NCBI GenBank assembly: GCA_029891345.1
Contig: CM057009.1
Coordinates: 289,364,966-289,428,965 of the forward strand
Origin: Dryococelus australis
Taxonomy: Eukaryota > Arthropoda > Insecta > Phasmatodea > Phasmatidae
Reading direction: 5' to 3'
DNA: 64,000 nt
Shown: in pieces, positions 30,190 through 56,518 of the stretch
Layout: each line of letters starts with the position of its first letter
Numbering within the stretch: position 1 is the stretch's first letter
Made by a program: the position numbers and the translations under genes
Notes under the pieces: generated by a model
What the model was told of the DNA's origin: nothing
What the model saw: the letters and a program-made list of their open reading frames with translations, nothing else
The model's database searches: none

Positions 30190-30357
30190 CGGCGTGGCGT
30201 CTTTTTTGAGACAGCATGTTTGCCGTTAGAAAAATACAACGGCCCACTGTATTTTCTGGGATAACAGATGAATATAACCAAAATTATGTCGACGTGATAC
30301 CTCACAGCCAACATGTCACCAATAGTAAAAATTATATTCTTGCCCGATTCCGATATA

Positions 30358-31485: not shown

Positions 31486-31692
31486 TGTTCATTTATGTGT
31501 CACGTGGTAGCCCATGGTATTTTTTACTTTGATTTTTTTTCCCTTTGTACAACCATCCGACAGATGTATTAAAAACTAACAAAAACTATTTTTTTGCAAG
31601 CCTTTGAAGAAACGAAAAAAACACTTTTTAAATAATCAGTATTTTAAAACTATCTGCTATAGTGTCATGGAATTTATACATCCATTTATAAT
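31486..31692. other. AT-rich DNA left of the palindrome
   Basis: No recognisable feature; this sequence has no counterpart beyond 54,296, which marks the outer end of the inverted repeat. Confidence 0.6.
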
Positions 31693-32709
31693 AATTTGTG
31701 TCATGATAAATTAAAAATTCCTGGAGAGTAACACAAGGGTCTTATGTTCGAATCCCGCACTCGGCAAGCAAGAAAATCATATATTATAATGTGTTGAGAA
31801 GTAAATGAAATAAATATATATAAAGAGGAAATATCAGATACTAAAATTTTTTATCGAATAGATAAGGTTTTTTCATGGTTATACTGCTTATTTCAGGACA
31901 TCATGCCGTTGCATGCCCGGCATCGTAATGGCATCCAATCATCGTAGGCCCGGCTTCTTTCCCCCATCAAGCCATCCCAGGCTCAGCATCTTGCCGCCAT
32001 CCAGCCGTCGCAGGCCCAGTGACTTGCCGCCATATAGTCGTCACGGGCCCGGTGCCTTCCCACCATCCAGCAGCCGCAGGCCCGGCGTTTTGCCACCATA
32101 CAGCCGCCGCAGTCCCTGCGTCTTGCCGCCATCCAGCCGTCGCAGGCCCGGTGTCATGCCGCCATCCAGCTATCGCAGGCCCGGCGTCTGGCCGCCATAC
32201 AGCCATCGCAAGGCTCGGCATCTTTCCGCCATCCAGCCGTCGCAGGCCTGGTATCTTGCCGACATCCAGCCTCCACAGACCCGGCGTCTTGCCGCCATCC
32301 AGCCGCCGTAGACCCGGCGTCTTGCCGCTATCCAGCCATCGCAGGCCCGGCGTCTTGCTGCCATCCTCCAACCACCGCAGACCCGGCTTCTTGCTACCAT
32401 ACAGCCGTCGCAGGCCCGGCGTCTTGCCGCCATCCAACCGTCGTAAGGCCCGGCGTCTTGATGCCATCCAGCCGCCGCAGGCCCGGGGTTTTCCCGCCAT
32501 CCAACCTTCGCAAACCCGGCGTCTTGCCACCATCCAGCCGTCGCAGGCCCACCGTCTTGCCGCCATCCAGCAGCCGCAGGCCTGGCGTCTTGCAGCCAAA
32601 TATCTGGCCCTCTTCCGGCATAACACAGCGGCCTAACCTCATCTGGCCGGAGATTGTCGGCTATCTTTTACCGCCCCGATTCCGGCCCGTAATTTTCGTA
32701 TTTGTTGGG
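31693..32709 (+). mobile_element. tRNA-headed minisatellite element, copy 1
   Basis: The outer end carries a tRNA T-arm-like GTTCGAATCCCGCACTCGG at about 31,747. A 33-bp minisatellite follows (31,915-32,620), and the inner end is CGTATTTGTTGGG. The inner boundary is supported by the copies ending at 53,656 and 63,291. It is non-coding and probably a composite SINE-like element; the class is not established. Confidence 0.7.
31915..32620. repeat. 33-bp minisatellite, about 21 units
   Basis: The unit contains GCCGCCATCCAGCCGTCGCA followed by GGCCCGGCGTCTT, repeated with small changes. Because 33 is divisible by three, several frames stay open on both strands and give 11-residue repeats (such as GLRRLDGGKTP). 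They are by-products and not proteins. The matching arm has only about three units. Confidence 0.95.
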
Positions 32710-33369
32710 AAGACATCTATTTACTGTCTGATTTATTCATGACATTTTATGACTTATATATATATAATTTAAGTTAATTTCAATGTTACCAATAGTAAGA
32801 TACTTTTATGTTAACAGAAGTATAACACGAAATGAAAACGCGAAGTCAAGAAATCATGAGAAATAAGAACTCAAATATGCTTAAAATTTTTAATTTTGAT
32901 GTTATGACGTTCTGCAACAAAAAAAAAATAATCTACAATTTGCATTCGCTGCTCGTTTGTTTCATTCTCTCTCAATTTTAGAGATTTCTTTTACCGAATA
33001 TGAGAAGCTTGAATTACGATATTCTACTAATTTCTGAAAAACATTTTTTAACATATTAATATTACACGTTGAGCATTTATCCAAAAATAGATTTATTGCA
33101 TTTACATTATCACAATTTAGAACAATCATTTATGTGTTTTTGGAATAAGGATTAGGTCCTGAAGAATGTTTTGCATTTCTTTAAATTGTTGCACACAATT
33201 TTTTTCCCCTACGTTTTAATCACAGCTGTTCTAAAATTATTTATAATCACTTTTTCTAACCGACCTTAACATTAGGACGACGCCTTTCCGCTTTCTTTGA
33301 TTATCAGGAAACTGTTTGGGTCACTATGTTTTGTTAGTTGTGATTTTGACCTGCGATAATACACTAAGT

Positions 33370-33623
33370 GTCGGATGAGTGAAGAAATATAGGCGGCTCT
33401 TAACAGCGAGGTGCTGAGAGCAGATGAGGGTGATTGAGGAGAGTATGGGGCATCGCCGGAATGAAAAGACAGGGGACACGTAAATCACGGAGAAAACCCT
33501 CCGACCAGCGGCATCGTCCGGTAAGATTACCGCACGCAAACATCCGGCATTGACCCGGCCGGGCATTGAACCGGTTCGCCTTGGTGAAAGGCGATAAGCT
33601 AACCGCTCATACACCGCGACCCC
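33370..33623 (-). mobile_element. SINE1 copy f, left arm
   Basis: Minus-strand B-box region GAACCGGTTCAATGCCC and body GCATCGTCCGG complement, ending near AAGAGCCGCCTATATTTC. The same insertion is at 52,379-52,632 in the other arm, so it predates the duplication. Confidence 0.8.
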
Positions 33624-34060
33624 AACTAACTATATAATATGAACAGAATTTCCAGGATCAATACGACTGACGAACTTCTAGAGGCGATGGGTGATGTAAA
33701 GAGGAACAACTTTTCTCAGAGAGCGGATGTCCGGAGTAGCTAATTTGAGACGTAATGCGTAGTTGTAAAGAAGTTCCATGCGCCTGTGAGGTACACATTG
33801 CTATAGGCGCGTAACACAAATCTCATGTCGATCATGTAGTCATATGTAGCCAGTGAATATGAGGGCCAGTTACAGACCCTCGCCTCTGTCTCATGGACTG
33901 ACGATAAGGTAGACAACGTATTCGACTACTGCGCATGTACCCAAAACTAACATACCCCAAAGGAACACAACAGTCAAAGACACATGGTCAACACTGATGA
34001 ACGTGTTGGTTTATGTCTTGATTTTTTAATGACAAACACTATTGCTATATTAATTAAATA

Positions 34061-34363
34061 CTATTTACCAAATTTAATTATATCAAACTTCATTACGAAT
34101 TTGTCAAACGTGGTATAATGCATTTTAAAGAAATTGTTAACTAAACAGTATTCTAACCTCAAATCTAATCCACACGGTCTTCGATAGACGTGTTGGTAGA
34201 AAAGCAGTTCAAGATTGGTCTGCCTCATCTTCAGTCTATGCTCTTCCGAAGAGGAAGGAACAACCAAAAGCACTGAGAACTGCAATATACAGAATGTGCT
34301 GTACGCAGTAAATAACGTCATTCCCTCACCACATTCCACAACACAGACTAGCGTCGTTGTCAC
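34061..34363 (-). CDS. Open frame of 100 codons shared by both arms, unknown
   Basis: The frame differs at only one residue from its copy at 51,634-51,936. A diverged homologous DNA segment lies in the spacer at about 45.19-45.56 kb; there the C-terminal part keeps a similar pattern (FVMKFDIIK versus FVMQFEYIK) but has stops elsewhere. The segment FKMHYTTFDKFV faintly resembles the N-terminal region of PIF/Harbinger-type transposases. It may be a transposase remnant; a functional gene is unproven. Confidence 0.2.
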   Translation of the reverse strand: MTTTLVCVVECGEGMTLFTAYSTFCILQFSVLLVVPSSSEEHRLKMRQTNLELLFYQHVYRRPCGLDLRLEYCLVNNFFKMHYTTFDKFVMKFDIIKFGK

Positions 34364-34827
34364 TGCTTGAGTCGAAACAGTTGTCGTGTATCACCATGAC
34401 TGCTATTATTACACCAGACTAGTAATGGACGCTTATTCTTATTCAGAAATGGCAGATATGCATCAGCACTGCTACGTCTTCAATCAAGCGGGGAGTCGCC
34501 ATTTAAAAAAAACCGGCTTTAGTTTATCTTATGGATATGTGTAATAAGTAATCAATAAAATACTGCAGTCTACACACGACTACATGGTTATTATTGTCAC
34601 CACCCCTGCAATATTACATAAAATACTACTGTTTCCTGGGAGGTAGGCAGTTGGTGCCTGTTGTATGTACCTCTAACTGCCAACGGGCCAGGTGGTAAAA
34701 CGTTTTGTACAAACGCGCCTAACATCTGAACAGGATAAATTCAAAGATCCGTTTGTAACAAATGATATTCTTTGTTACCTATTACCCCCTGAAGTTTGTT
34801 GTAATTGTCTTATGACGGCATGAACAA

Positions 34828-34830
<3 letters not shown>

Positions 34831-34880
<50 letters not shown>
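34831..34880. repeat. (TA)n microsatellite, left arm
   Basis: About 25 TA units; the matching tract in the right arm (51,134-51,168) is about 15 bp shorter. Confidence 0.95.
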
Positions 34881-34882
<2 letters not shown>

Positions 34883-35658
34883 CAGAAGAGCCAGATTTTT
34901 TTCAAGAAAACGTTTACACACAGATTAAATTTCAGTAACTTACGTCCCGTCAATATAAAGATGAATTTTCACTCTCAGATGCAATTATCCGGTTAAGTTC
35001 TTGTGTCCACGACCTAGGATAGCTAGCACATTAAGAATACTTGCGGCCGTTACTGTAAAAAGAAATGTATGTAAGCACAGTGCCTTGAGCGACTATCGCA
35101 CGAACAATCTAATTTACAAAAGTTTCTGAACCTCTTGTTTATAAATAATTTATGCTAATAACACCAAGCATGTAGCACGTTTTTCACTACCTGCCATAAG
35201 TACACTCAACACAAGAAGTGAACACCAAATAGTTGCCCGCTAGCAACACGAACAAGTAAATTAATTTAGGACTGAAAGAGTTAAACCATGTTCTTGAGAA
35301 AAGGGTGTGTTGTTTAACTTCAAGTATCAACAGTAAAAAATTATCATCAAAAATTTATACTAAATAAATACAATTTGATATTAATAAGAACTCATAGCAA
35401 TACCAGTTCATAATATTCAGGGGTGTACACCTTAAAGTTGAATAATAACCTGCCCGATAACTTGGATTCTGAGGTTAAGACCCATAGCTGTGTGTCGTAC
35501 CTCAACTGTGATGTGAAAAGACGTACACAGATGAAGATGCTGAGAGTGAGATGAGAATTTTGTTAAATCGAAATTACATGGGCAACGTCTGCCACGTTTA
35601 CAACACAGCATAATTCGGCTATGACTATGCCGAAGCTAGAACCCGAACACACTTGTCA

Positions 35659-36331
35659 TAGACTGTTCACGGTAAAATGAGAACTTTGGAAATCCCTGCT
35701 TACAATCGACTTGTATACACGTTTGTATTCCCCCGCCTTATGAAAAACCAAACATTGCCATAGGCATCATCACTTTATTCATGCGTCAGTAAAATGAAAC
35801 TCCGGAATTATTAAGAAAGTAATTTTAACAGTTCGATGCATTAAAAAAACCAAAAGAAATAATTTTAAATTACCATAAATGGTTACATAACACTTTTTAT
35901 TCAACGTTAGGATATGGAACTACTTTCCATCCATCGTTACCAACTGTAGTGGACAAATCTCAGTCAGTGTGCTCGGTAAAATATTTGCATGCGAAGTAGG
36001 TAAGGTAGGTAAGTGGGCTTAACGTCTCGTCGACACCGAGGTCATTAGTGACGCTGCAAGATGCACAGCGAATAGTGAGTTGGGGGATGGATTAGAAAGG
36101 AATAAGGCTATGGCCACTTGTTAGGGACCTATCACAGCATTCGCCTTTACTGATTTCGGTAAACCATGGAAAACTGAAATCATGATGTCCTGACCGGGAA
36201 TCGTACCCGGGTCGTCCCGAATGCGAGCCCATGGACTAACCACTGCGCCAACTCGCTAGGTTTTGCATGCCAGCGCAATTACTGTTTTTAAGGTTCATTT
36301 CTGAAGTGCTCACTTTATCGTGAACAGACTT
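35659..36331. mobile_element. MITE family C, long form, carrying SINE2 (left arm)
   Basis: TAGACTGTTCACGGTAAAAT at the left and TTTATCGTGAACAGACTT at the right. About 400 bp of MITE are interrupted by SINE2 at 35,993-36,261. The same arrangement is at 49,678-50,350. Confidence 0.85.
35993..36261 (-). mobile_element. Complete SINE2 with 9-bp target duplication (left arm)
   Basis: The minus strand reads CCTAGCGAGTTGGCGCAGTG (A-box region), CGGGTACGATTCCCGG (B box), then AACGTCTCGTCGACACC complement in the body, and a CTTACCTACCTTACCTACTT tail. TTTGCATGC flanks both sides (35,984-35,992 and 36,262-36,270). The body resembles a SINE I remember from locusts. It is transcribed by pol III in principle and encodes no protein. 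Confidence 0.9.
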
Positions 36332-37045
36332 TAAGAGACAACATTAAACTTCACCATCCAGATTTTACTGATAAGGGTTTTTATAACTGTGGCGATGGTT
36401 TATCGTAGTTCCTGTGATTTAGTTGTTCCTTATATTAACGTTTTGTTATTAGTATGGAAATTAATATGCTACACTTATGAGGGTATGAAACGAAATAAAT
36501 AATAAATACATACAAATATTATAAAACCTACGTTTTACTAAACATAATACCGCACCTACGCATTTAAAGGTGAATCAAGCTTGAGAAAAAACGTACTGGA
36601 TGCTTAAGAACAATAGAAAAGGGCGTGAATTTCTGAGCAATTAGCCGGTGAATGCAGATCTACAAGCACAACTGTCTCCAATACAAAAATATTTCATAGA
36701 AATTATAATTATCAGTCATCATTTTCATTCAACTTAATATAAATTATTATTTGTTTTTGACGTCCTTATAGTCAAGATACCCAATAATTTCATGGTAGGA
36801 AATGGCACAAGGTAACACTCTACAATACTCTGTTTCATCGAGCAGAGGTTATTTGCTTTATATCTGTTGTCACAGTCAGAATAAATTCTCCTGTTCGGCT
36901 TACACACATGCAAATATGCGACAGGAGTGCTGAACATGCGATATTGGTACAGAATTCTGCAGGGTCTGTATTACGAGAGTAGTTGCAATGAAATGTGCGA
37001 AAATAAAATATACTTCTTTGACAGCTAGTACGCTACAAAATCAAA

Positions 37046-37285
37046 TCATAAATGATAGCGTCTATACCAGCGGCGTGGAATGTACTGTTGGAACGTAAAT
37101 TGTGGTTTTTTAGTGAGATTTATCGGATCGTTTGCTAGTTTACACATCGGCCACTCAAACGTAATAGTGTGGTTGAACTCACAGCACGTGTGTAATGGGT
37201 GCATCGTCACTATCTCGTGAATGACCGCAGTACATTCGTGCGCCGAGTTTCTACAGCACTGTGAAAACACCAGTTTAACTTGCAA
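37046..37285 (-). CDS. Candidate exon or small open frame, identical in both arms
   Basis: The 79-codon frame is identical to its copy at 48,724-48,963. An acceptor-like TGGTGTTTTCACAG lies inside; after it the frame continues with a cysteine-rich stretch (CRNSAHECTAVIHE, then HTCCEFNHTITFEW) including an NHT glycosylation-type site, and ends at TGA. It could be the last exon of a secreted or extracellular protein. It lies within the nearly identical core of the arms, so identity alone does not prove selection. No family recognised. Confidence 0.2.
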   Translation of the reverse strand: MQVKLVFSQCCRNSAHECTAVIHEIVTMHPLHTCCEFNHTITFEWPMCKLANDPINLTKKPQFTFQQYIPRRWYRRYHL

Positions 37286-38338
37286 AACGTTACCTCATTC
37301 CACTGGTCTATGTGTATTGTAAATAGAAAATCATCATGAAAAAACAAGATGAGGTTTTCAATTGCATACCACTATTGAACTTGACTAATTGTTGCTAGAA
37401 AGTTCGCTATTTTTTATTAGGGTGTGTCGTATTTTGAGGAATCCAAGGTGAATATTTAAAAATAATAAATCAAAACCGTACGGCATTAGAATCATTAACT
37501 ACGCTTGAAGCAATGCGGTGATGTAACAAAATTTACACTTTATTTGCGAAAACGAAAAATGTACAGAAATGGACCAAACATTTGATCAATCCTTAAAAGT
37601 ATGTGCGTGTGCAACCGAGTATTTATGCTAAATGTGCTACATATATGTATTGTTGCTCTGTGTGAAAATGCAGGATGTTTTTGAAACTAAACCTGTTACA
37701 CATTTCTAGTACATCCTTTATCGGACTATAATAAAATATTTTTATTCTTTTGTGCAATAATGTTATTCTATGTAACTGCTGCCTGGTATTAAATATATGG
37801 TTATTAAATTAATTTTCTGAAAGTCTCCAATGCCGTTATATATTTTTGACCAGCTGTACATAAACCTTACGGGGCGTAGACTGCCTTATTTGAATTAAAT
37901 ATCATTATTACAGAAATTTCTTTCATATTTTCTTCATGCATATAAATTTGAGTTCCATTTAATTTTCTGCGAGTTTTTACCAGTGTTAGTTTGGTTTGTG
38001 TAATGTACGCTCCTGGCACGAAGTAGTGTCACAGAGTAGATAAGAAGACAGAAACGAAATTGCATGGAGTTTCCTTTGGTGTGGGCGTGCCAATTGGCTG
38101 ATTGGCTGAGGGAAGCACCGGGAACCTGCCTTGTGTCTGACTGGTAGAGAACTAAAAATTCCGAGTTCAATGACCTGTAGGCTAGACTACGCAGTATTAT
38201 ATACTCTCATGCATATATCTATTGCTTATTGGGTGATTGTTGTTGTAGTAAAAGGCGGTGATAGGACGCACAATTTGTTGTATGTATGTTATTGACTCAC
38301 TTATCTCCGTGGGGTGTCTAGCAACGCGTTGGCAATTA

Positions 38339-38636
38339 CTAGGGATAGCAATATTTCGCGAGTTCATTTCAGGGCAAAATAGACGTCAAACACTTGTACA
38401 CTGAAATAGAATTTGCAATTGGCTTGCAGTTTATTAGACACACCATGGACGACTCTGAGCCAATAGCATACTTGCAAGGAAATCAGTAGCAAGTGCCATA
38501 CTGCAACGTGTGAGGATAACACTGGCTACTGTGTGGGGCAGCAGCCAATGAACAAACATCTGAGGCTCGCGTATACACATGACTGTGGTGTCTAGCCTAC
38601 AGGTTATTGAACATGCGAATTTTTCCTATCCTTAAC
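38339..38636. mobile_element. Family A-related MITE in left arm
   Basis: TAGGGATAGCAATATTTCGC at the left and the complementary GCGAATTTTTCCTATCCTTA-type end at the right; the inner parts share GAGTTCA with family A ends. The copy in the right arm is at about 47,373-47,670. Confidence 0.6.
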
Positions 38637-39370
38637 AATTAAACAAGTATCATGAATGTAAATGTGTATGAATTCCATCTTGCCTAGAAATGAATCCGCA
38701 AAATTTTCAGGTCTCTTCTCATTGGTTTCTGCCGGTGAGTTCAAAGCTTATCATTTAGGTCACCTTGTTTTTCAAGTAAATATTTACGTGGACGCAAGAC
38801 TTCAATATATTTTGTGCACAGATGCAATCATCCTTTGGCTATCGGCCTCCAGTGTTTATGTGAAAATTGACGGCCACAAGAATGAACCAAACAGAATTGT
38901 GTTTCTCCGATACTAATTGTCCATGAGTATCGGGCAGGCACATCATTAACATAACAATTCAAATAATCCAATCACTAGAGCGGTTCTGAACCGAAGTGAT
39001 TTGGAACACAACTTGTCCAGTATTCTTTTCGTGGAAAACAGGTGGACATACTCAATCTCATGTATGGCTCACCAGCACGAAATTGAGCTTCTATAGTACG
39101 GAATGTACACAATTAGTTAAGATATCTCCAGGTTCTGTCTGATGATCTGTGGTCCTATGACATATGTTTAACTCTCATGTACTTATAAAGTCTCCTAGCA
39201 TGGCACCAAATTATTATGCGAATGTTGGGATTACTCTCTATGAGAATACCATGCAGGGAAGCATAAATGTCTCATATGACTATTATGTGCAGCCACAAGT
39301 ATGCTACCCTGATAGCGAGAGCGCAAACATTCTTCGAGGAAGTGGAACGAAATGTTGAGCGTTAAAAAAC

Positions 39371-39388
39371 AAACCCCCCCCCCCCCAG
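39371..39388. repeat. Poly-C tract, left arm only
   Basis: A run of about 15 C replaces a short CCTCC-type sequence in the right-arm and spacer copies. It is either a slippage expansion or an assembly-sensitive site. Confidence 0.8.
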
Positions 39389-42300
39389 GCAGGGCCAGTA
39401 GTTATCAAACACGGGCCAGTATTATGACTGGAAACTCAGCGGATGAGACCTTTGTCTTCGAGACACTGCACCAGGAAGACGTCAAGGGATGGGTGCATGA
39501 AGTCCGCCGACATACGTCTAGTCATTAGCCTAAAATATAATGAACAAGGAGGCAATGTTCCTTAGAAAATATTCAGAGTTGCTTTACTGTGATTAAGTAA
39601 TTAAAATATATATTATAATAATCATTTATACAATGTAACAAATTAAAATATATTAAGAGCACGTCCGAGTTGAAAACTGACAGAAAGGTTTGTAAACATG
39701 ATGTCATATATAATATTTCGATACAGGACAATAAAGATGTATAAAGTGTTCACATTTGAGTTACACCTTACAACAAACTTGTACGTTAAATATAAAATAT
39801 AAAGACACCGTACACCATAGTTATAAAATGTAATACTGGTGGAGGTGCCTTATGGTTGCACCTTTTTCGGCCATGCTAATCTATATTACAAAAGTAAATC
39901 CACTATGAAATATTAATTATCATGATTACAATTAAAATAAATAATAATTAACAATAAACTAAGAGAGTTGTATTAATTATCAGTAAATAAAGAATCATTC
40001 AAGGATGCTAAAAAAATTATAATTGAAACAATTTTTTGCCACATTATAATTTCTAATTCATTCTGTATCTATTACTTAAAACTCAAAATGTCGATACATC
40101 TTTACCCTCATTCGGTCCAGAGTAGAGAAATTTCAATCTATTAGACAAATAAAAATATTAAAACATTGTCCTGTATGTTTAAGTATACGAATAAAGTAAA
40201 TGTCATATAGATAACTTAAGAAATAATGCAGTTGACTATAATAAAATTATTTGCTTTTCTTGAATTCATTCTCGACTTAAAATAAGTAATTTTTGTAAAG
40301 AGTTGAAATTAGTAAAATAAATCAAATCTCTAAATATCGGTGTGAGCAAAACAATGAAATTTGGTTTTAAAAATAATAAGGCCTATACAATGTAATAAGT
40401 CATATTAATTTGATTAATAGTCGCAGGACAAACCAATTGATATAAGTAATGTATTATGTACTAGCATCCAGTGTTTTGATAAATAATAATGATATTGAGT
40501 TAATTACTTATATACTTGTTTTAAAAGGCTCATTTTAGATGCATGTGAATCTGATATTGCAACTTAATGAATTTTGTGCTTATTACATATCGTTAATATG
40601 TAATATTAAAATGCTTCCGTGTATGACACGTGGAAAGGTTTGTACGTGCCAGAGAGGCCTGTACAGAAAGTTGCCAAACAACAGAACAAAGTCCGAAGCG
40701 TGGTGCGACCCAGTTTCCACTTGTGAAACAATGCATTGAAACACAACCTCCGCCCGCCGGTGACTCAGCAGGATTGCGTGGAATTGCGCCATGGTGTTTA
40801 CAAACGCATGCTTGAGCGCTCTGCTATTTTATATATGCACCTTCTGTTAGTGCTAAGTTTAATTAAGGGTGTAAGTATGGAGATTTTAACTTCACTGAAT
40901 TTAATATTAATGCGGATTCGGAATGGAATGATTGCCATTTAACCCAAGCAGTACGGCAATTCGGAAGCTTAGCAACTTTCGTGTTACCAGATGTACTAGA
41001 GATGTGCTGAACCAATCATTAAATTGATGCATCGACTGTTGGATGAGATGTGAGTTTGGACAACTTTAATGGAATGATAAGGGTATTAATGGATTGGGAA
41101 ACAGGGCCAGAGAAACACTCATTTCGGCTGTGAAAGACGAATACACAGTGTATCCACATACTCTAAGGTAATAGGTAGTTTTACTCAGGAGGTTATTATT
41201 TTCTTGCTCGAGAAACAGGATTGGGGGCCCATTGCAGTCTAGCCTACCGACAAGTATAGCCCATGGTGTCTTGAACGTGAGTGCAAAACTCTAGGCTCTG
41301 TCGGGTGTCGAATCTGTAGGAGATTTGGGAGCGTATGTGTAAATACATTTGTAATTCCTCTGAGCTGTAGAGGTGCCTCTAACCAGAAGGAAGAGATGAG
41401 AGATGAGAGAGACTGAAATTAGATAGACTTTAACTGATCATCCTGGTTATGACACATTTAATAGATTTAGACTTTTTACTGTGGGTCATGCATATTACAT
41501 AGTATACTGCAAATGAACCATGAGGGCACATCGTAAATTGGACCTCCTGGGAGTATATCCATTGAGTGCAGATTTACCAATACCCAAATTTTATTGTTTT
41601 TATGGAAATGCCTATATACGTTATATAATCTTTGAGTATGCCACTTTTGTATGCCTACAATAGTTTAATATTACATTTTATTTACAATTTTGTATTTCAA
41701 AGTAAGTGTTTATACTGATTTATGATATCGGTAATAATTAAATATAATTGAATACATGTGCACACAGCACACAGACAAAAGAGGGGACATATTTAATATA
41801 TTAATTAAATCTATAATACAACTACTAATGTACAGAATGAAATTATTAATTATGATAATTATCTTGCATGAGACAGTTACTGTTAACAAAATATTAAAAG
41901 GCACATGCACACTCCAATCACAATAAAAATAATACAAGAAACCTAGTCTACTATAAAAAATACCTATATAATTTTATGCACACTATAATTTCAGTAAGTG
42001 TATGTAATACAGTAATTGTATGTTTCAGAGCGGCCGAGGTTATAGCAGTCATTTGTGTGGAACAACCTATCCACGTCCGTGACGTAACATGCGGCAACTT
42101 GTCATCCGACATCTTTGGAGAGGGGGACGGCAATCCAGGTGTCAGCACGACGATGCAGCATTGCGCCCCAGCGACAACACGCGAGTATCAGAACTCCATT
42201 AAGTACTGCATTTTAACATGTCAGGGAACACCAACAATTAACTATTGCACACAATGTTACACACCCGGCCAGGCCAGTCAACCAATCAGTCAGCCAAGTA

Positions 42301-43856
42301 AACAAACATTATACATAACACCTGGATACAAAAGAAAAGATATTTACAATCTAACATATCATACAGCACTCACGCACGCGTAATGATTTTGAAAACATTA
42401 TTAAACAGATTTCAATGCAGATATTAGTCTTATATGTGTTTTAACCAGCCAACGATCGCCGAATAGTAAAATTTTACATTAAACTGTATTATACAGATAG
42501 GGCACAAGTAAAGTAAACAGGCGCCTTAGGTATGTGTTACTAGCACAGGTACAATGTTATTATCTTAGATTATGAAATGGTTCGGGAATGTAATGAAAAT
42601 AGTAATAAAAACAGAATTATATGTATATATATAATGGCAATGTTTACAATAGCGTCAAGATCATGTAATACAAAAATGCGTAACTCATTAATATAAAAAG
42701 TTGTATAACAAATTATGTTTGTACACACTTGTTGGCGCTTTTAAAAAGTTCAAGAGAATATTTTGATTATAAAATACTTTAAGAGAGCACATTGTTATAT
42801 ACTTTTTAAAACAGTATTATTAGTATTATTGTCAAAATATATAAATTATACAAAAATGTCAACCAATGCCTTTCTAAATATTTAAGTCATGTTTATTGTT
42901 TGAATAACCATATAAAGAATTTATAATATGTTCATTATATATATAATTATAAGGTCATCCTGCAATTACTGTGCGAAAATATAGGGGTTATAGTATAAAT
43001 AGAGTAGTAAGTTAATTTAAGGAGTCCTCTTATTCCCTCCTTACGTATTGAAACGGAGTTTGCTGTTAAACATGGAATGTTTCTTATTTTCATATTTATT
43101 TTCAATAACTGTTAATATAAACGCAATGTACTACGTTTCTATACAAAATCCTTCTTCATCCCAATATAATGGGATATATCTTTTAAGACTTTTTAAGACG
43201 ATAATTAACTTTTCATTTTATGTAACATGTTATTTGTTGTACATTGACACTATCTAAATTGTAATTTCCTTTTTACAGCATATACTTATAGGTGTATTAA
43301 CATAATATATTGTAACGAGGGAGCAATTTACTGTATTTTTAGTTTACAACATAATATGTGTATTGTTATTTCAAAATAAGAGTTTAAACGTTAATTAAAA
43401 TCTTTAACTACTTTTGCAATTTTACTTGTAATTAAAACTTGTTATGCCACGTATAAACTAGGTAATTTAAAAGCTGAAGAGAGGCTGACTGTACAGAGCG
43501 CACACCGTGTACGACTGCCGCGAGACGCGAACACGACACTTTGCGTGTCCCTTGCAAAAAGTGTAGTTCAAAGCCACCCGCCGTTAAGTACTCAGCACAT
43601 ATGACGCACTGCCTGGCCTCCCTACGACTCCGGTGGCAGTTCCGCATATATTTACCTTTCATGTCGCTCGTATCTCCTTACACTTTAAATATCCTAACCG
43701 TAGCGAAGACATCACCGCGTCTATTTTCCTACTACCAAAAGAAGATGCAGAAATTAAATAATTGGTCAGTTAAATATTCAAATAAATTCACATTACCACA
43801 GTCCATTATGCGTGATGAGGACACCACGCATATCTATGTAAAGGGGTTAATGTTAA

Positions 43857-44272
43857 GTGCAGCAACAGGCATGTAATCTCGATTACGAGAGCACAAAAAT
43901 ACTACGAGGAAGTGGAACGAAGCCTTGGGCGTTTAAAAAAAATCCCTCCCTGCAGGGCCGGTTGTTAATAAACACGGGCCAATATTATGACTGGAAACAC
44001 AGCGAACGAGGCCTTTGTCTTAGAGTTACAGCGGCAGGAAGACGTCTTCCAATTAAAATATATTAAGAGTTTATCCGAGTTAAAGACGAACTGAAAGATT
44101 TGTAAACGAGATGTAAATTATATGATTTCAATACAGGACGATAAAGAGATAAATATTGTTCACCTTTGAGTTACGCCTTAACCGAAACTTGTAAGTTTAA
44201 TATAAACTATAAAATAATACACCCATTTTATAAAGCATCACAAAACGCTCTTCTGCTAATATCTCAAAATCC
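43857..44272 (+). repeat. Diverged copy of the arm inner end (module J), direct to left arm
   Basis: Matches left-arm 39.28-39.80 kb in the same direction (GAGGAAGTGGAACGAA, TATTATGACTGGAAAC, GGCAGGAAGACGTC). It lacks about 170 bp after GACGTC. It forms a smaller inverted repeat with 45,770-46,014, which shares the same deletion. Confidence 0.85.
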
Positions 44273-44454
44273 ATGCTTGGATTCCCTTACTTACGAGCAG
44301 CGTGACTAATATCCTGCAGGCCAATAAAGGCGATGGGGCACTAAATGCTCGTAGCAGCGACGTCATTAAAGCTGTCTATATTATGTGTATTGAAAGCGCA
44401 CAATTACGTTAGGCAGGCAGGAGTACTGGTTTAGGATGTCAGATAGAAATAGCT

Positions 44455-44693
44455 AGAGATGTGAGAAATTTGCAGATTCTTTTGGGACAAACTAGAATTC
44501 AAAACACGTGCGTTTATATAACTTTAGCCATTGGTACGGAAGGTGTTTGACACCTCCAGGAGAACGGTGTCCAATTGTCACCTTCCACTGGGACATCAGG
44601 CAACTAATATGCAGTTGATATCGGCACATTTGAACATAAAACTTTAGAGTCTTGTTTGCGTGTCATTGAACTCGCGAATTTTTCAGGTCTCTA
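44455..44693 (-). mobile_element. MITE family A copy 9
   Basis: AGAGATGTGAGAAATTTGCAG at the left and GCGAATTTTTCAGGTCTCTA at the right. The flanks GAAATAGC and GTAATATC agree at 6 of 8 positions, consistent with an aged 8-bp duplication. Confidence 0.85.
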
Positions 44694-44958
44694 GTAATAT
44701 CGCAACTGTGAAGCGTATGTAACAGGGAAAATTTGCGAGTCCCAAAAGCTCACACGCTATCCCCCCGAAAACGTCAAACATAAGAAGGGGGATCTCCCCG
44801 CCCCTCTTTTCACATAAGAGGTTACTCGGAAGGGGAACTGCAATTCAAATGTTTAATTTTTAGGTATCTCGGTATTTCGCGTCCGTCTATCGTTAACTCT
44901 CTACAACAGTAGTGCAACCCAAAAAAGGGTGTTTTTTTTTAGGGGTATCAGTTATGTG

Positions 44959-45188
44959 TAGTGACCTAAGTTTAATGAACAGCAGGCTAGACTCTACAGT
45001 CTTATGTACAAATATGTCGATATCAGCTGCACGTTGGTTGCCTGCCATCACAGTGGAAGGCGACAATTGGACAACAGTTTCCAGGAGGTGTCAAACACAG
45101 TGTGGGCCAATGGCTAAAGTTATATAAACGCATGTGTTTTGAATTCTGTGTTGTCCCGAATTGAATCTGCGAAATCTTCAGATCTCTA
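44959..45188 (+). mobile_element. MITE family A copy 10
   Basis: TAGTGACCTAAGTTTAATGA at the left and GCGAAATCTTCAGATCTCTA at the right around the family interior. Confidence 0.8.
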
Positions 45189-45192
45189 CTTA

Positions 45193-45565
45193 CATTCCAT
45201 AAACTAAAGATGAGGTAGACCGATTCCGCTGGTTCCGCAAAACCATACTCTGTGAACCAAGATTACACTGCTTTTCTGCCAACACGTCTAGCGAAAACGG
45301 TATTATGTGGATTTCAGATTAGATAATTGATTTCTAAACAAATGTTTTGAGATGTATGTTTACATATTCAAACCAATTTGTAATGCAGTTTGAATATATT
45401 AAAATTGATAAAACTAACTTTATTCGTATGATAGTGCTTGTCATTCAAAGATATAGATATAAACAAACATGTTTCACTGTTGTCCATGTGACTTTGAAAT
45501 TTGTGTTGCTTTGGAGTAGGTCAATAATGGATACATGCGCAGAAGACAAATAAGCGGTCTAGTTC
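45193..45565 (+). repeat. Diverged copy of arm module H in spacer
   Basis: It aligns with right-arm 51.76-52.08 kb (GATGAGGTAGACCGAT, CAACACGTCTAGCGAA, GTACATGCGCAG-type end) with many substitutions, so it is older than the arm duplication. Stops interrupt the arm frame here. Confidence 0.75.
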
Positions 45566-45769
45566 AACTTTAGCCAATAAAATTATCCCAAGAAAAAATG
45601 ACTAGCAGTTACTAATAAAGTTGGAAAACTGTTAGACGTAGGTCCTACATATTATAGGGAAAGTAATTCTTAAAATCAATATTATTTTCGAGTTATAACA
45701 CTGTCGCACTGAGGTATGTATATGTTGTAAGAGTATTTCTGCTTGTAAGGGAATTCAAGCATTAATAAA

Positions 45770-46014
45770 GCGATATTAGTAGAAGAGCATTTTGTTATCC
45801 TTTATAAAAGGGTGTAGTATTTTATAGTTTATATTAAACTTACAAGTTTCTTTTAAGGCGTAACTCAAAGGTGAACAATATTTATCTCTTTATCGTCCTG
45901 TATTGAAATCATATAATTTACATCTCGTTTACAAATCTTTCAGTTCGTTTTTAACTCGGATAAACTCTTAAAATATTTTAATTGGAAGACGTCTTCCTGC
46001 CACTGTGACTCTAA
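45770..46014 (-). repeat. Diverged module J, inverted to 43.86-44.27 kb
   Basis: Reverse complement of 44,029-44,272, from GATATTAGTAGAAGAGC to CTTCCTGCCACTGTGACTC. It abuts the inner end of the right arm, whose own module J (46.19-46.38 kb) is a less similar direct copy. Confidence 0.85.
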
Positions 46015-48723
46015 GACACGCTGTGACACATTTACTGATAATTAATACAACTCTCTTAGTTTATTGTTAATTATTATTTATTTTAATTGTAATCATGATA
46101 ATTAATAATTCGTAGTTGATTTACTTTAATAATATAGCTCAGCAAGCCCGAAAAAGGTGCAACCATAAGGCACTTCCACCAGTGTTACATTTTATAACTA
46201 TGGTGTATGGTGTCTTAATATTTTATATTTAACGTACATGTTTGTTGTAAGGTGTAACTCAAATGTAAACACTTTATACATCTTTACCGTCCTGTATCGA
46301 AATATTATATATGACATCATGTTTACAAACCTTTCTGTCAGTTTTTAACTCGGACATGATCTTAATATATTTTAATTTGTTACATTGTGGTAATGATTAC
46401 AATATGTTATTTTATTACTTAATTACATTAAAGCAACTCTGAATATTTTCTATGGAATATCGCCTCCTTGTTTATTATATTTTAGGCTAATGACTAGACG
46501 TATGTATGCAGACTTCATGCACCCATCCCTTGACGTCTTCCTGGTGCAGTGTCTCGAAGACAAAGGTCTCGTCCGCTGAGTTTCCAGTCATAATATTGGC
46601 TCGTGTTTGATAACCACCAGTCCTGCATGGAGGGGTTTGTTTTTAAATACTCAAGACTTCGTTCCACTTCCTCGAAGTATGTTTGCGCTCTCGCTATCAG
46701 GGTAGCATACTTTTTGCTGCACATAATAGTCATATGAGACCTTTATGCTTCCCTGCATGGTATTCTCATAGAGAGTAATACCAACATTCGCATAATAATT
46801 TGGTGCCATGCTAGGAGACTTTATAAGTACATGAGAGTTAAACATATGTCATAGGACCACAGATCATCAGACAGAACCTGGAGATATCTTAACTAATTGG
46901 TACATTCCATACTATAGAAGCTTAATTATGTGCTGGTGAGACATACATGAGATTGAGTATGTCCACCTGTATTCCACGAAAAGAATACTGGACAAGTTGT
47001 GTTCCAAATCACTTCGGTTCAGAACCGCTCTAGTGATTGGATTATTTGAATTGTTATGTTAAAGATGTGCCTGCCCGATACTCATGGACAATTAGTATCT
47101 GAGAAACACAATTCTGTTTTGATCATTCTTGATGGCCATCAATTTTCACATAAACACTGGAGGCCGATAGCCAAATGATGATTGCATCTGTGCACAAAAT
47201 ATATTGAAGTCTAACGTCCACGTAAATATTTATGTGAAAAAGAAGGTGACCTAAATGATAAGCTTTGAACTCACCGGCACAAACCAATGAGTAGAGACCT
47301 GAAAATTTTGGGGATTCAATTCTAGGCAAGATGGAATTCATACACATTTACATTCATGATACTTGTTTAATTGTTAAGGATAGGAAAAATTCGCAGGTTC
47401 AATAACCTGTAGGCTAGCCACCACAGTCATGTGTATACGTGAGCCTCAGATGTTTGTTCATTGGATGCTGCCCCACACAGAAACTAGTGTTATCCTCACA
47501 CGTGGCAGTATGGCACTTGCTACTGATTTCCTTGCAAGTATGCTATTGGCTCAGAGTCGTCCATGGCGTGTCTAATAAACTGTAATCCAATTGCAAATTC
47601 AACTTCAGTGTACAAGTGTTTGACGTCTTTTTTGCCCTGAAATGAACTCGCGAAATATTGCTATCCCTAGTAATTGCCAACGCGTTGCTAGACACTCCAC
47701 GAAGATAAGTGAGTCAATAACATACATACAACAAATTGTGCGTCCTATCACCGCCTTTTACTACAACAACAATCACCCAATAAGCAATAGATATATGCAT
47801 GAGAGTATATAATACTGCGTAGTCTAGCCTACAGGTCATTGAGCTCGCGAACTTTAGTTCTCTACCAGTCAGACACAAGGCAGGTTCCCGGTGCTTCCCT
47901 CAGCCAATCAGCCAATTGGCACACCCACACCAATGGAAACTCCGTGCAATTTCGATTCTGTCTACGTATCTACTCTGTGTCACTACTTCGTGCCAGGAGC
48001 GTACATTACACAAACCAAACTAACACTGGTAAAAACTTGCAGAAAATTAAATGGCACTCAAATTTATATGCATGAAGAAAATATGAAAGAAATGTCTGTA
48101 ATAATGATATTTAATTCAAATAAGGCAGTCTACCCCCAGTAAGGTTTATGTACAGCTGGTCAAAATTATATAACGGCATTGAAGACTTTCAGAAAATTAA
48201 TTTAATAACCATATATTTAATACCAGACAACAGTTACATAGAATAACAGAATTGCACGAAAGAATAAAAATATTTTAGTGTAGTCCGATAAAGGATGTAC
48301 TAGAAATGTGTAACAGGTTTAGTTTCAAAAACATCCTGCATTTTCACACAGAGCAACAATACATATATGTAGCACATTTAGCATAAATACTCGGATGCAC
48401 ACGAACATCCTTTTAAGGAATGATCAAATGTTTGGTCCATCTCTGTACATTTTTCGTTTTCGCAAATAAAGTGTAAATTTTGTTACATCACCGCATTGCT
48501 TCAAGCGTAGTTAATGATTCTAATGCCGTACGGTTTTGATTTATTATTTTTAAATGTTCACCTTGGATTCCTCAAAATACGACACACCCTAATAAAAAAT
48601 AGCGAACTTTCTAGCAACAATTAGTCAAGTTCAATAGTGGTATGCAATTGAAAACCTCATCTTGTTTTTTCATGATGATTTTCTATTTACAATACACATA
48701 GACCAGTGGAATGAGGTAACGTT

Positions 48724-48963
48724 TTGCAAGTTAAACTGGTGTTTTCACAGTGCTGTAGAAACTCGGCGCACGAATGTACTGCGGTCATTCACGAGATAGT
48801 GACGATGCACCCATTACACACGTGCTGTGAGTTCAACCACACTATTACGTTTGAGTGGCCGATGTGTAAACTAGCAAACGATCCGATAAATCTCACTAAA
48901 AAACCACAATTTACGTTCCAACAGTACATTCCACGCCGCTGGTATAGACGCTATCATTTATGA
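48724..48963 (+). CDS. Right-arm copy of the candidate exon at 37,046-37,285
   Basis: Identical 79-codon frame with the same internal acceptor-like TTTTCACAG and terminal TGA. See the left-arm entry for what can be seen in it. Confidence 0.2.
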   Translation: MQVKLVFSQCCRNSAHECTAVIHEIVTMHPLHTCCEFNHTITFEWPMCKLANDPINLTKKPQFTFQQYIPRRWYRRYHL

Positions 48964-49677
48964 TTTGATTTTGTAGCGTACTAGCTGTCAAAGAAGTATA
49001 TTTTATTTTAGCACATTTCATTGGAACTACTCTCGTAACACAGACCCTGGAGAATTCTGTACCAATATCGCATGTTCAGCACTCCTGTCGCATATTTGCA
49101 CGTGTGTAAGCCGAACAGGAGAATTTATTCTGACTGTGACAACAGATATAAAGCAAATAACCTCTGCTCGATGAAACAGAGTATTGTAGAGTGTTACCTT
49201 GTGCCATTTCCTACCATGAAATTAAAGGGTATCTTGACAATAAGGACGTCAAAAAAAAATAATAATTTATATTAAGTTGAATGAAAATGATGACTGATAA
49301 TTATAATTTCTATGAAATATTTTTGTATTGGAGACAGTTGTGCTTGTAGATCTGCATTCACCGGCTAATTGCTCAGAAATTCACGCCCTTATCTATTGTT
49401 CTTAAGCATCCAGTACGTTTTTTCTCAAGCTTGATTCACCTTTAAATGCGTAGGTGCGGTATTATGTTTAGTAATACGTAGGTTTTATAATATTTGTATG
49501 TATTTATTATTTATTTCGTTTCATACCCTCATAAGTGTAGCATATTAATTTCCATACTAATAACAAAACGTTAATATAAGGAACACCTAAATCACAGGAA
49601 CTACGATAAACCATCGCCACAGTTATAAAAACCCTTATCAGTAAAATCTGGATGGTGAAGTTTAATGTTGTCTCTTA

Positions 49678-50350
49678 AAGTCTGTTCACGATAAAGTGAG
49701 CACTTCAGAAATGAACCTTAAAAACAGTAATTGCGCTGGCATGCAAAACCTAGCGAGTTGGCGCAGTGGTTAGTCCATGGGCTCGCATTCGGGAGGACCC
49801 GGGTACGATTCCCGGTCAGGACATCCTGATTTCAGTTTTCCCATGGTTTACCGAAATCAGTAAAGGCGAATGCTGTGATGGGTCCCTAACAAGGGGCCAT
49901 AGCTTGATTCCTTTCTAATCCATCCCCCAACTCACTATTCGCTGTGCATCTTGCAGCGTCACTAATGACCTCGGTGTCGACGAGACGTTAAGCCCACTTA
50001 CCTACCTTACCTACTTCGCATGCAAATATTTTACCGAGCACACTGACTGAGATTTGTCCACTACAGTTGGTAACGATGGATGGAAAGTAGTTCCATATCC
50101 TAACGTTGAATAAAAAGTGTTATGTAACCATTTATGGTAATTTAAAATTATTTCTTTCGGTTATTTTAATGCATCGAACTGTTAAAATTACTTTCTTAAT
50201 AATTCCGGAGTTTCATTTTACTGACGCATGAATAAAGTGATGATGCCTATGGCAATGTTTGGTTTTTCATAAGGCGGGGGAATACAAACGTGTATACAAG
50301 TCGATTGTAAGCAGGGATTTCCAAAGTTCTCATTTTACCGTGAACAGTCT
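49678..50350. mobile_element. MITE family C, long form, carrying SINE2 (right arm)
   Basis: Counterpart of 35,659-36,331. Ends AGTCTGTTCACGATAAAGTG and CATTTTACCGTGAACAGTCT. Confidence 0.85.
49748..50017 (+). mobile_element. Complete SINE2, right arm
   Basis: Plus-strand head CTAGCGAGTTGGCGCAGTGG and B box GGGTACGATTCCCGG. GCATGCAAA flanks both ends (49,739-49,747 and 50,018-50,026), the same target duplication as the left arm. About 3 percent difference from the left-arm copy by eye. Confidence 0.9.
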
Positions 50351-51130
50351 ATGACAAGTGTGTTCGGGTTCTAGCTTCGGCAGAGTCAAAGTCGAATTAT
50401 GCTGTGCTGTAAACGTGGCGGACGTTGCCCATGTAATTTGTATTTATTCAAAATTCTCATATCACACTCACCATCTTCATCTGTGTACGTCTTTTCACAC
50501 CACAGTTGAGGTACGACACACAGCTATGGGTCCTAACCTCAGAATCCAAGTTATAAGGCAGGTTATTTTTCAACTTTAAGGTGTACACCCCTGAATATTA
50601 TGAACTGGTATTGCTATGAGATCTTATTATATAAATTGATTTTATTTAGTATAAATTTTTGAAGATAATTTTTATTAATTTTGATACTTCAAGTTAAACA
50701 ACACACCCTTTTCTCAAGAACATGGTCTAACTCTTTCAGTCCTAAATTAATTTACTTGTTCGTGTTGCTAGCGGGTAACTATTTGGTGTTCACTTCTTGT
50801 GTTGAGTGTACTTATGGCAGGTTGTAAAAAACGTGCTGCATGCTTGGTATTATTAGCATAAATTATTTATAAACAAGAGGTTCAGAAACTTTTGTAAATT
50901 AGATTGTTCGCGCGATAACCCCTCAAGGCACTGGGCTTACATACATTTCTTTTTACAGTAACGGCCGCTAGTATTCTTAATGTGCTAGTTATCGTAGGTC
51001 GTGAACACAAGAACTTAACCGGATAATTGCGTCTGAGAGTGAAAATTCATCTTTATATTGACGGGACGTAAGTTGCTGAAATTTAATCTGTGTGTAAACG
51101 TTTTCTTGCAAAAAAAATCTGGCTTTTCTG

Positions 51131-51133
<3 letters not shown>

Positions 51134-51168
<35 letters not shown>
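51134..51168. repeat. (TA)n microsatellite, right arm
   Basis: About 17 TA units, shorter than the matching tract in the left arm. Confidence 0.95.
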
Positions 51169-51171
<3 letters not shown>

Positions 51172-51633
51172 TTATTCATGCCGTCATACGAAAATTACAA
51201 CAAACTTCAGGGGGTAATAGGTAACAAAGAATATCATTTGTTACAAACGGATCTTTGAAGTTATCCCGTTCAGATGTTAGGCGCGTTTGTACAAAACGTT
51301 TTACCACCTGGCCCGTTGGCAGTTAGAGGTTGATACTACAGGCACCATCTGCCTACCTCCCATGAAACAGTAATATTTTATGTAATATTGCAGGGGTGGT
51401 GACAATAATTACCATGTAGTCGTTTGTAGACTGCAGTATTTTATTGATTACTTATTACACATATCCATAAGATAAACTAAAGCCGGTGTTTAAAATGGCG
51501 ACTCCCCGCTTGATTGAAGACATAGCAGTGCTGATGCATATCTGCCATTTCTGAATAAGAATAAGCGTCCATTACTAGTCTGGTGTAATAATAGCAGTCA
51601 TGGTGATACACGACAACTGTTTCGACTCAAGCA

Positions 51634-51936
51634 GTGACAACGACGCAAGTCTGTGTTGTGGAATGTGGTGAGGGAATGACGTTATTTACTGCGTACAGCA
51701 CATTCTGTATATTGCAGTTCTCAGTGCTTTTGGTTGTTCCTTCCTCTTCGGAAGAGCATAGACTGAAGATGAGGCAGACCAATCTTGAACTGCTTTTCTA
51801 CCAACACGTCTATCGAAGACCGTGTGGATTAGATTTGAGGTTAGAATACTGTTTAGTTAACAATTTCTTTAAAATGCATTATACCACGTTTGACAAATTC
51901 GTAATGAAGTTTGATATAATTAAATTTGGTAAATAG
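51634..51936 (+). CDS. Right-arm copy of the 100-codon frame, unknown
   Basis: One residue different from the left-arm frame (position 5, Leu versus Gln). Possible transposase remnant; see the left-arm entry. Confidence 0.2.
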   Translation: MTTTQVCVVECGEGMTLFTAYSTFCILQFSVLLVVPSSSEEHRLKMRQTNLELLFYQHVYRRPCGLDLRLEYCLVNNFFKMHYTTFDKFVMKFDIIKFGK

Positions 51937-52378
51937 TATTTAATTAATATAGCAATAGTGTTTGTCATTAAAAAATCAAGACATAAACCAACACGTTCAT
52001 CAGTGTTGACCATGTGTCTTTGACTGTTGTGTTCCTTTGGGGTATGTTAGTTTTGGGTACATGCGCAGTAGTCGAATACGTTGTCTACCTTATCGTCAGT
52101 CCATGAGACAGAGGCGAGGGTCTGTAACCATCCCTTATATTCACTGGCTACATATGGCTACATGATCGACATGAGAATTGTGATACGTGCCTAGCGCAAT
52201 GCCTACCTCACAGGCGCATGGAACTTCTTTACAACTACGCATTACGTCTCAACTTAGCGACTCCGGACATCCGCTCTCTGAGAAAAGTTGCTCCTCTTTA
52301 CATCACCCATCGCCTCTAGAAGTTCGTCAGTCGCATTGATCCTGTGAAATTCTGTTCATATTATATAGTTAGTTGTGG

Positions 52379-52632
52379 TCGCGATGAATGAGTGGTTAGC
52401 TTATCTCCTTTCACTAAGGCGAACCGGTTCAATGCCCGTCACTGCTGGGGATTTTCGCGTGCGGGAATCTTGCCGGACGATGCCGCTGGTCGGTGGGTTT
52501 TCTCCGTGATCTCCCGTGTCCCCCGTCTTTTCATTCCGGCGCTGCTCCATACTCTCCTCAATCACCCTCATCTGCTCTCAGCACCTCGCTGTTAAGAGCC
52601 GCCTATATTTCTTCACTCACTCTACAGTTAGT
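52379..52632 (+). mobile_element. SINE1, right arm
   Basis: Head GGTCGCGATGAATGAGTGG, body GAATCTTGCCGGACGATGCC and AAGAGCCGCCTATATTTC. TAGTTAGTTGT before it and CAGTTAGTGTT after it may be remains of a target duplication. Confidence 0.8.
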
Positions 52633-53172
52633 GTTTTAACCCAGGTCAAAATCACAACAAATACAAACATAATAATCCAACCAGTTTCTTGATAATGAAA
52701 GAAAACTGAAAGGCATCGTCTTAATGTTAAGGTCCGTTAGAAAAATTTTATTTTAGATAATTTCAGGACAGCTATAATTAAAACCTAAGGAAAAGAAAAA
52801 TTTAGTGTGCAACAATTTAAATAAATGCAAAACATTCTTCCGGACATAATCCGTATTCCAAAAACACATTAATGATTATTCTAAATTGTGATATTGATAA
52901 TATAATAAAACTATTTATGGATAAATGCACTACGTGTAATATTAATATGTTGAAATATGTATGGCAGAAATTAATAGAATAATGTAAATTAAGCTACGCA
53001 TATCCAGTAAAAGGAATCTCTAAAATTGGGAAAGAATTACCTAAACGAGCAGAGAATTCAAATTTCAGATTAAATTTTTCTTGCTGTAGTAAATAGTCAT
53101 ATATCAATATATGTTTTTAAGTTAATTTTTGTGCTTATACCTCAATATTTTTGATTTCGCGTTTTCATTTCG

Positions 53173-53537
53173 ATGCGAGCCGAACTTTATTGTTTTCGAC
53201 GAACCTAAGAACGATCCGTGATTTCATTTACAATTGTTAATTATACGAAGAAGTTAACCTTACTGATCGCTCTATATCTTTAGCATTCAACTTTTGTTAC
53301 TGGCACGATATTCCAACAGAGTGTGCTTAATCTGTTGCTGGTCAATGGCACGAGTGAAATGAGTTCACATAATCTTGTAGTTTACTTTTCTACCGGAAAC
53401 TAATACACATTTTGCATGCATCTCTTTACTACCTCCTTCTATATAGTCTATTAATAGTATTTTTCACTTTATGAATCAGACCTTTCGACACAATAAGACA
53501 TGTTTTGTTTTTTCTTAGATTTGTTATGCAACAGAAG
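53173..53537. other. Segment present only in the right arm
   Basis: Between TCGCGTTTTCATTTCG and CGTGTTATACTTCTG, which are adjacent in the left arm (about 32,828), the right arm has about 365 extra bases. No terminal repeats or target duplication are clear, so insertion into the right arm and deletion from the left arm both remain possible. Confidence 0.8.
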
Positions 53538-53655
53538 CGTGTTATACTTCTGTTAACATAAAAGTATCTTACTATTGCTTACATTGGAATATACTTAAAC
53601 ATTATCTATAAGTCATAAAATGTCATAAATAAATCAGAGAGTAAATATGTGTGTT

Positions 53656-54296
53656 CCCAACAAACACGAAAAGTGCGGGCAGGAATCGGGCCGTTATAAG
53701 ATAGCCGACAAACTCCGGCCAGATGATGTCGACCCACTGTCTCATGCCGGAAACGGCCCAATGAAAATATGGAGAGGAGGCTGACTGTTTGCCGACAGTG
53801 TCAAAAATACACCTTACCGCTAAAGGCAAAACAATAAATGTATTCCGGCCGACATACACAAAAAGTAAGGGCCGGAATCAGGCGGGTAAAAGATAGCCGA
53901 CAAACTCCGGTCAGATGATCCCGGTCCGCTGCCGGAAGCGGCCCGATGGATGGCGGCAAGACGCCGGTCCTATAGAGGCTGAATGGCGGCAAGATGCCGG
54001 ACCAGCGACTACTGGATGTCATTTCGATGCCAGGCCTGAATCAGCTTGATGTCCAAAAATAAGCAGCATAACCATTAAAAAACATTAATTTTTCGATTAA
54101 ATATTTTAGTAATTGTTATTTCCTCTTTACATATAACCATTTCATTTACTTCTCAACACACTAAATTATATAAAAATATTTTGCTCACTGAGTGCGGGAT
54201 TGAACCTAAGACCCAGCATACTAACCTATACACCACGGGGTAAGTTGGTGTTACTCACCAGTAATTTCAAATTTATCGTCATACAAATTATTATAA
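53656..54296 (-). mobile_element. tRNA-headed minisatellite element, copy 2
   Basis: Inner end CCCAACAAACACGAAAAG; two related blocks containing GATAGCCGACAAACTCCGG; about three minisatellite units at 53,940-54,030; and a tRNA-like head on the minus strand at about 54,190-54,245 (GTGGTGTATAGGTTAGTATG, GGTTCAATCCCGCACTC). The anticodon-arm region seen in copy 3 is missing. Confidence 0.75.
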
Positions 54297-54458
54297 GTGC
54301 AGTTTGGCTGACCAACAGAAGAGAAGTCTACAGCGCCTGATTATGCCAGCGAATTATGTAACATACTAGCTGACATTCATGATTTTGTCCGGCAGCACCT
54401 CAGAATAAATAATGAAACGATGAAGAGGGGGTATTAATAGAGAATGTCGGCCAAGGTA
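54297..54458. other. DNA right of the palindrome
   Basis: No similarity to the left flank and no recognisable feature before the gypsy integrase fragment. Confidence 0.5.
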
Positions 54459-54660
54459 TTTCAAGAAGGATAACTTGTGTGGCTGTACAACCCTCATTGG
54501 CGAAAAGGGCGCTGTCCAAAGCTACATGAATGTTGGGAAGGCCCCTACAAGATTCTGAAGAAGAATGATAATATGGTCTTTCAGAAGTGTCGTCAAGGTT
54601 CTCGGCCGAAGCGGATGATTGTCTACATTGACTGACTGGTACTCTACGATGGTCCACATG
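54459..54660 (+). pseudogene. Ty3/gypsy integrase C-terminal fragment
   Basis: One plus-strand frame reads VWLYNPHWRKGRCPKLHECW, then EGPYKILKK and PKRMIVYID, the typical end of gypsy-type integrases (GPY/F region, then a YID or HLD ending). Stops interrupt it near the start and after YID. It lies upstream of, and is unrelated in reading frame to, the gypsy element at 57-63 kb. It is the remnant of a different retrotransposon copy. Confidence 0.8.
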
Positions 54661-54929
54661 TTACAGCGTCTGCTCGAAATAAACAGACTTGAGGAGCGGG
54701 CGAGTGTTAAACGCTCGCTGCTTCGCATCACTTCCGAGTGCGGGAATGTTATAAGGTCATGCATGGAGCCCAAGAGCGGGCGACGGACATAAAGATCAAC
54801 TTACACAGGCTTGCTGGTGCGCATGGCACTGTGATAAATCTCACGTGACTTGCACTTCTGACCTTCGGATATTGAATTACCATGTTTATCTGAAAAAATT
54901 TGTGGTGGTTTCCATCCCTAGTTTCTCAC

Positions 54930-56510: not shown

Positions 56511-56518
56511 GAACTGTG

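Follow-up and report, generated by a model that had tools for sequence, protein, structure and literature searches.

A large imperfect palindrome with unevenly diverged arms in the genome of Dryococelus australis

A 64,000-nucleotide stretch of the Dryococelus australis genome (contig CM057009.1 of assembly GCA_029891345.1, positions 289,364,966 to 289,428,965 of the forward strand; hereafter the window) contains a large imperfect palindrome whose arms are far more alike in their middle than at their outer ends. We consider it probable that this palindrome is an old inverted segmental duplication, the core of which has been kept alike by gene conversion between the arms. Comparison of the window with itself by BLAST revealed a dominant inverted match between 32,828-39,988 and 53,172-46,030, with 7,181 alignment columns, 94.6% identity, 26 gap openings and a score of 11,141 bits, far above the level expected by chance. 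The match continues outward as two diverged inverted pairs, 31,737-32,003 with 54,214-53,947 (78% identity) and 32,605-32,829 with 53,760-53,538 (85% identity), and the outer limits of the palindrome lie at approximately 31,686 and 54,296. Paired coordinates sum to 86,000, and to 86,008 at the inner end. An original prediction, made from the sequence alone, had described a palindrome at 31,693-54,296 with 8.3-kb arms and a coordinate sum of about 86,009, and our self-comparison bears out the limits, the arm length and the sum. Colinear inverted arms of kilobase length around a spacer are thus present, as in other large palindromes (Table 1).

Divergence between the arms is strikingly uneven. 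From the outside inward, mismatches amount to 20.2% and 14.9% in the head and tail of a repeated element (E) at the palindrome ends, 19.0% in the next 547 aligned bases, 9.9% in a repeat resembling a short interspersed nuclear element (SINE-like repeat B), and 6.5% beyond it; further inward the values are 0 (481 bases), 3.1%, 0 (453 bases), 3.9% and 8.3%, with 6.6% in the innermost pair. Segmentation of the 369 differences between 32,828 and 39,988 yielded three segments, with 16.9%, 3.2% and 8.5% mismatches, as compared with 60 uniform permutations, 59 of which gave a single segment and one of which gave two. Between 33,900 and 39,960 the variance-to-mean ratio of the differences was 4.5, and the longest identical run was reached in none of 10,000 permutations. 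Because colinear arms should be of the same age and yet differ so unevenly, the simplest reason for the likeness of the core would be that it has been overwritten by gene conversion. What bears on conversion is that the arms diverge by 3% in the core and by 15-20% at their ends, a contrast that could also reflect constraint.

The inner ends of the arms reveal a second asymmetry. An additional inverted pair, 44,016-44,290 with 46,018-45,745 (93% identity), adjoins the right arm directly, whereas on the left 4.0 kb separate it from the contiguous arm. The right junction near 46,019-46,029 contains, by eye, some 11 filler bases that match neither of the adjoining sequences on the left. One repeat unit has its second half in both arms and its first half in the left-only segment; the simpler account is therefore a deletion on the right rather than an insertion on the left, and the right arm would have lost some 4.0 kb. 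The arrangement suggests that the left arm formerly reached approximately 44,290, giving an arm length of about 12.6 kb. The spacer within these limits carries two copies of family A, which resembles miniature inverted-repeat transposable elements (MITEs). This family is represented by ten copies of about 240 bp in the window, and its ends resemble AGAGACCTGAAAAATTCGCG by eye. As the two spacer copies lie in opposite orientation, they were entertained as an extension of the palindrome. We rejected this candidate: their 80% likeness is within the range of other pairs of family A, and one of them is closer (86.8%) to the copy at 12,130. We take both to be independent insertions.

Two repeats occur in both arms and speak to the order of events. 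The arm copies of SINE-like repeat B are each other's best match, at a distance of 0.10, with the four other aligned copies at least 0.23 from either; because of this mutual pairing, the insertion of B is older than the duplication. The second is a 432-bp element with terminal inverted repeats (TIRs), found at the matching place in each arm. The prediction had invoked shared transposon insertions with shared target duplications. The insertions held up; the target duplications were not confirmed, as flanks matched over at most 5 bases in a simple search built on perfect inverted repeats of at least 11 bases spaced 120-2,500 bases apart.

We therefore favour, without regarding it as settled, a scenario in which a stretch of approximately 12.6 kb, with dispersed repeats already inside it, would have given rise to an adjacent inverted copy, separated from it by a spacer of about 1.45 kb. 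Staggered breaks may account for this, as may repair by fold-back or template switching. The copies would then have drifted apart to about 15-20% at their outer ends, approximately 4 kb would have been lost from the right arm, and, as the patchy divergence suggests, gene conversion without crossover, acting between the facing arms, may repeatedly have erased differences in the central 5.7 kb and left long identical tracts.

Table 1. Features of the palindrome and related repeats (window coordinates)
Feature	Position	Strand	Remarks
Left arm, contiguous part (8.3 kb)	31686..39988	+	Inverted match to 46,030-54,296
Right arm, contiguous part (8.3 kb)	46030..54296	-	Inverted match to left arm
High-identity core of left arm	33623..39351	+	Segmentation; 171 mismatches in 5,710 aligned bases (3%), 10 gap openings
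Identical run between arms, 481 bases	33869..34349	+	Arm alignment
Identical run between arms, 453 bases	37000..37452	+	Arm alignment
Left end element E	31686..32827	+	Head resembling a tRNA by eye, array of a GC-rich 33-bp repeat (about 20 copies), then inner tail; divergence from right end 20% (head) and 15% (tail)
Right end element E	53538..54296	-	Roughly two 33-bp units by eye (Tandem Repeats Finder: no array); comparison with left end
Right-only stretch of 365 bp separating end element from arm	53173..53537	-	Left arm joined directly at 32,828
Third E copy	63289-64000		Right-end orientation, about 5 units of the 33-bp repeat; begins at border of long terminal repeat (LTR) element, runs off window
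Segment present on left only, about 4.0 kb	39989..44015	+	Comparison of arm inner ends
Inner end of left arm	44016..44290	+	Pairs with 45,745-46,018; 6.6% mismatches
Inner end of right arm	45745..46018	-	Pairs with 44,016-44,290
Probable original spacer, about 1.45 kb	44291..45744		Two MITE-like A copies and one F copy; limits from inner pair
SINE-like repeat B, left arm	33376..33623	- (by eye)	Shared with right arm
SINE-like repeat B, right-arm partner	52389..52622	+	Shared with left arm
432-bp TIR element common to both arms	38173..38604	+	Partner 47,405-47,836, matching place
Remnant resembling C-terminal part of Ty3/Gypsy integrase	54303..54659	+	Cut at right outer palindrome end; by eye
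Family A copies	807-1040, 7788-8040, 12082-12333, 17805-18051, 20040-20232
Family A copies	21443-21700, 23517-23766, 24583-24803, 44454-44699, 44969-45188

Certain observations weigh against an inverted duplication homogenised by conversion. With regard to conversion, segmentation at the chosen threshold left both identical runs unseparated from the remainder of the core, and base composition carries no clear sign of GC-biased conversion, with a GC content of 37.7% in the core, 37.9% in the outer arm, 38.8% in the spacer, 39.3% in the left flank, 33.4% in the inner arm and 33.9% in the left-only segment. Clustering of mismatches can, moreover, also arise from constraint or uneven mutation, conversion here being judged from comparison of the two arms. 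With regard to the duplication itself, the coincidence of both palindrome ends with the repeated element E is unexplained, and the two end elements do not behave as sisters, being no closer to each other than either is to the third copy. Outside the 33-bp array the three E copies show 79 differences, 35 of them unique to the left end, 25 to the right end and 19 to the third copy; under a clock, these counts speak mildly against a closest kinship of the two ends (one-sided P of 0.049). A duplication that took place after E had spread would not predict such differences, which fit neither it nor a mobile unit neatly.

The main rival to a segmental duplication is a giant foldback-like mobile unit, in which the arms would be very long TIRs with subterminal 33-bp repeats and the transposase would be encoded elsewhere. 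We judge this unlikely, while recognising that some of what is seen at the palindrome borders would suit it. Both ends start with TTATAATAATTTG, both contain 33-bp units (about 20 at the left end and, by eye, about 2 at the right), and TTATA stands at both outer borders; because TTATAA is self-complementary and inseparable from the end sequence, a possible TTATAA target duplication would be hidden there. Element E, in its third copy, is the part of the palindrome that recurs within the window, besides small dispersed repeats. In addition, the right end interrupts the Gypsy-like integrase remnant as an insertion would.

The same remnant provides an argument against mobility, as its other half could not be found on the left. 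Six-frame searches of the left flank (29,000-31,700) recovered no integrase family, with no more than two weak matches to unrelated families, both under the cut-off, and a tblastn search for the left partner with the window's other integrase piece gave no meaningful match (best E-value 0.5). The remnant itself has no Pfam match and no other copy in the window. The flanks thus do not rejoin into one continuous sequence as those of a foldback-like transposon should, though the left flank may have changed later. Further points against a mobile unit are that a Pfam scan of the left arm and spacer recognised no family of transposases, that other transposons lie inside the arms, and that the rest of the window (1-31,500 and 54,301-64,000) holds no second copy of an arm, apart from E itself and small dispersed repeats. 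Nor does arm sequence accompany the third E copy past the LTR element, 54,301-63,287 containing no arm match at an E-value of 1e-4.

Known foldback-like elements bear on this rival in both directions. Elements with unlike ends and unmatched flanks exist: in the excerpted text cited here, 12 chimeric copies of Galileo carry ends that belong to different groups, with 7-bp flanks that do not match (PMC3573991, PMC4079207). In the same excerpts, the internal tandem repeats of Galileo ends vary, the ends reach at most about 1.26 kb and most copies have 7-bp target duplications, and complete copies of Tetris lack conserved open reading frames and have target duplications of 8-10 bp (PMC3573991, PMC4079207). 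Our palindrome shares inverted ends with these elements, so far as those excerpts describe them, and may resemble them further in carrying internal tandem repeats whose number varies, seen here as an array on the left and, by eye, as about 2 units on the right. It differs in scale, even the longest Galileo ends in those excerpts, at 1.26 kb, falling well below the arms described here, and may differ in the target duplications and several family members that are features of theirs, only the ambiguous TTATA(A) being seen at the borders here. A more specific proposal, in which a giant foldback-like element of non-autonomous type would have 8-12 kb of inverted sequence at each end, subterminal 33-bp repeats and facing arms homogenised by gene conversion, seems to us more doubtful still.

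It is very unlikely that the likeness of the core is due to purifying selection on an unrecognised gene or RNA instead of gene conversion. The two long identical runs would agree with selection, as would the scarcity of gaps, with 10 openings in the core against 171 mismatches. However, no family was detected by Pfam at an E-value of 0.01 in six frames of 31,600-39,101 and 39,000-46,051, a scan that covered the left arm and spacer. Stop-to-stop frames of at least 110 amino acids are absent from the core of either arm, and core mismatches showed no three-base periodicity in any of ten sub-windows (lowest P 0.10); short exons or an undescribed RNA would be compatible with these results. Likewise, no Rfam family reached its gathering score in the window, a search with ARAGORN found no tRNA gene, and open frames of 161 and 132 amino acids in the left-only segment matched no Pfam family. 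No protein was recognised; the palindrome is most likely without a selected function.

Large inverted repeats are a classic misassembly, yet the joining of two haplotypes or a hairpin read in inverted orientation is a very unlikely source of this one, since alleles or hairpin reads are expected to differ evenly, while divergence here spans 15-20% at the ends to 0% mid-arm and is accompanied by unlike flanks, by a spacer distinct from the arms and by a 4-kb difference that affects one side and has filler at its junction. Where the prediction had placed inverted duplication, mobile unit and misassembly side by side, the sequence favours the first, leaves the second a lesser chance and, through the divergence pattern, makes the third unlikely.

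Other repeats were seen elsewhere in the window. A Ty3/Gypsy-type LTR retrotransposon at 56849-63289 has LTRs that are approximately 85% alike and coding sequence broken into short pieces; among the pieces tested, there was one reverse transcriptase match below the curated cut-off and one integrase core match above it. A perfect array of 31 CT dinucleotides (6804-6865) adjoins a copy of SINE-like repeat B. Finally, the segments 2434-3239 and 30421-30777 look by eye like remnants of Tc1/mariner transposases and gave no Pfam match at an E-value of 0.01 in the three frames tested.

Large inverted duplications and converting palindromes are already known kinds of structure, to which this locus adds an example without recognised genes; a literature search made without the species name returned no publication that we took as describing it. 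Location on a sex chromosome is usual for large converting palindromes and does not define them. Palindromes of mammalian Y chromosomes, such as human P6, have large inverted arms, a non-duplicated spacer and gene conversion with inferred kilobase tracts, according to the excerpted account available (PMC3723533). The palindrome described here is similar to that account in its large inverted arms around an unduplicated spacer and in the conversion that we propose, and differs in that identity ranges from 80 to 100% and no gene was recognised. A rise in GC content in converted arms is optional, P4, P5, P7 and P8 showing no difference in that account (PMC3723533). At the O7 inversion breakpoints of Drosophila subobscura, as far as the excerpted report goes, inverted duplicates of 59 and about 540 bases flank an intervening segment and are attributed to staggered breaks or repair (PMC7584159). 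The likeness to those duplicates lies in the inverted arrangement around an intervening segment; the difference lies in scale, with arms of 8-12.6 kb and a spacer of 1.45 kb here.

What is of most interest in this palindrome is its unsettled end elements. Were it a mobile unit, foldback elements could far exceed the sizes of Galileo and Tetris given in the excerpts cited above. We may also speculate that the palindrome, if transcribed through its whole length, would fold into long double-stranded RNA. If gene conversion is indeed responsible for the likeness of the core, a single pair of arms would combine unconverted (15-20%) and converted (0-4%) stretches without recognised genes, and would thereby serve as a natural test of the reach of conversion between arms where there is no selection for genes.
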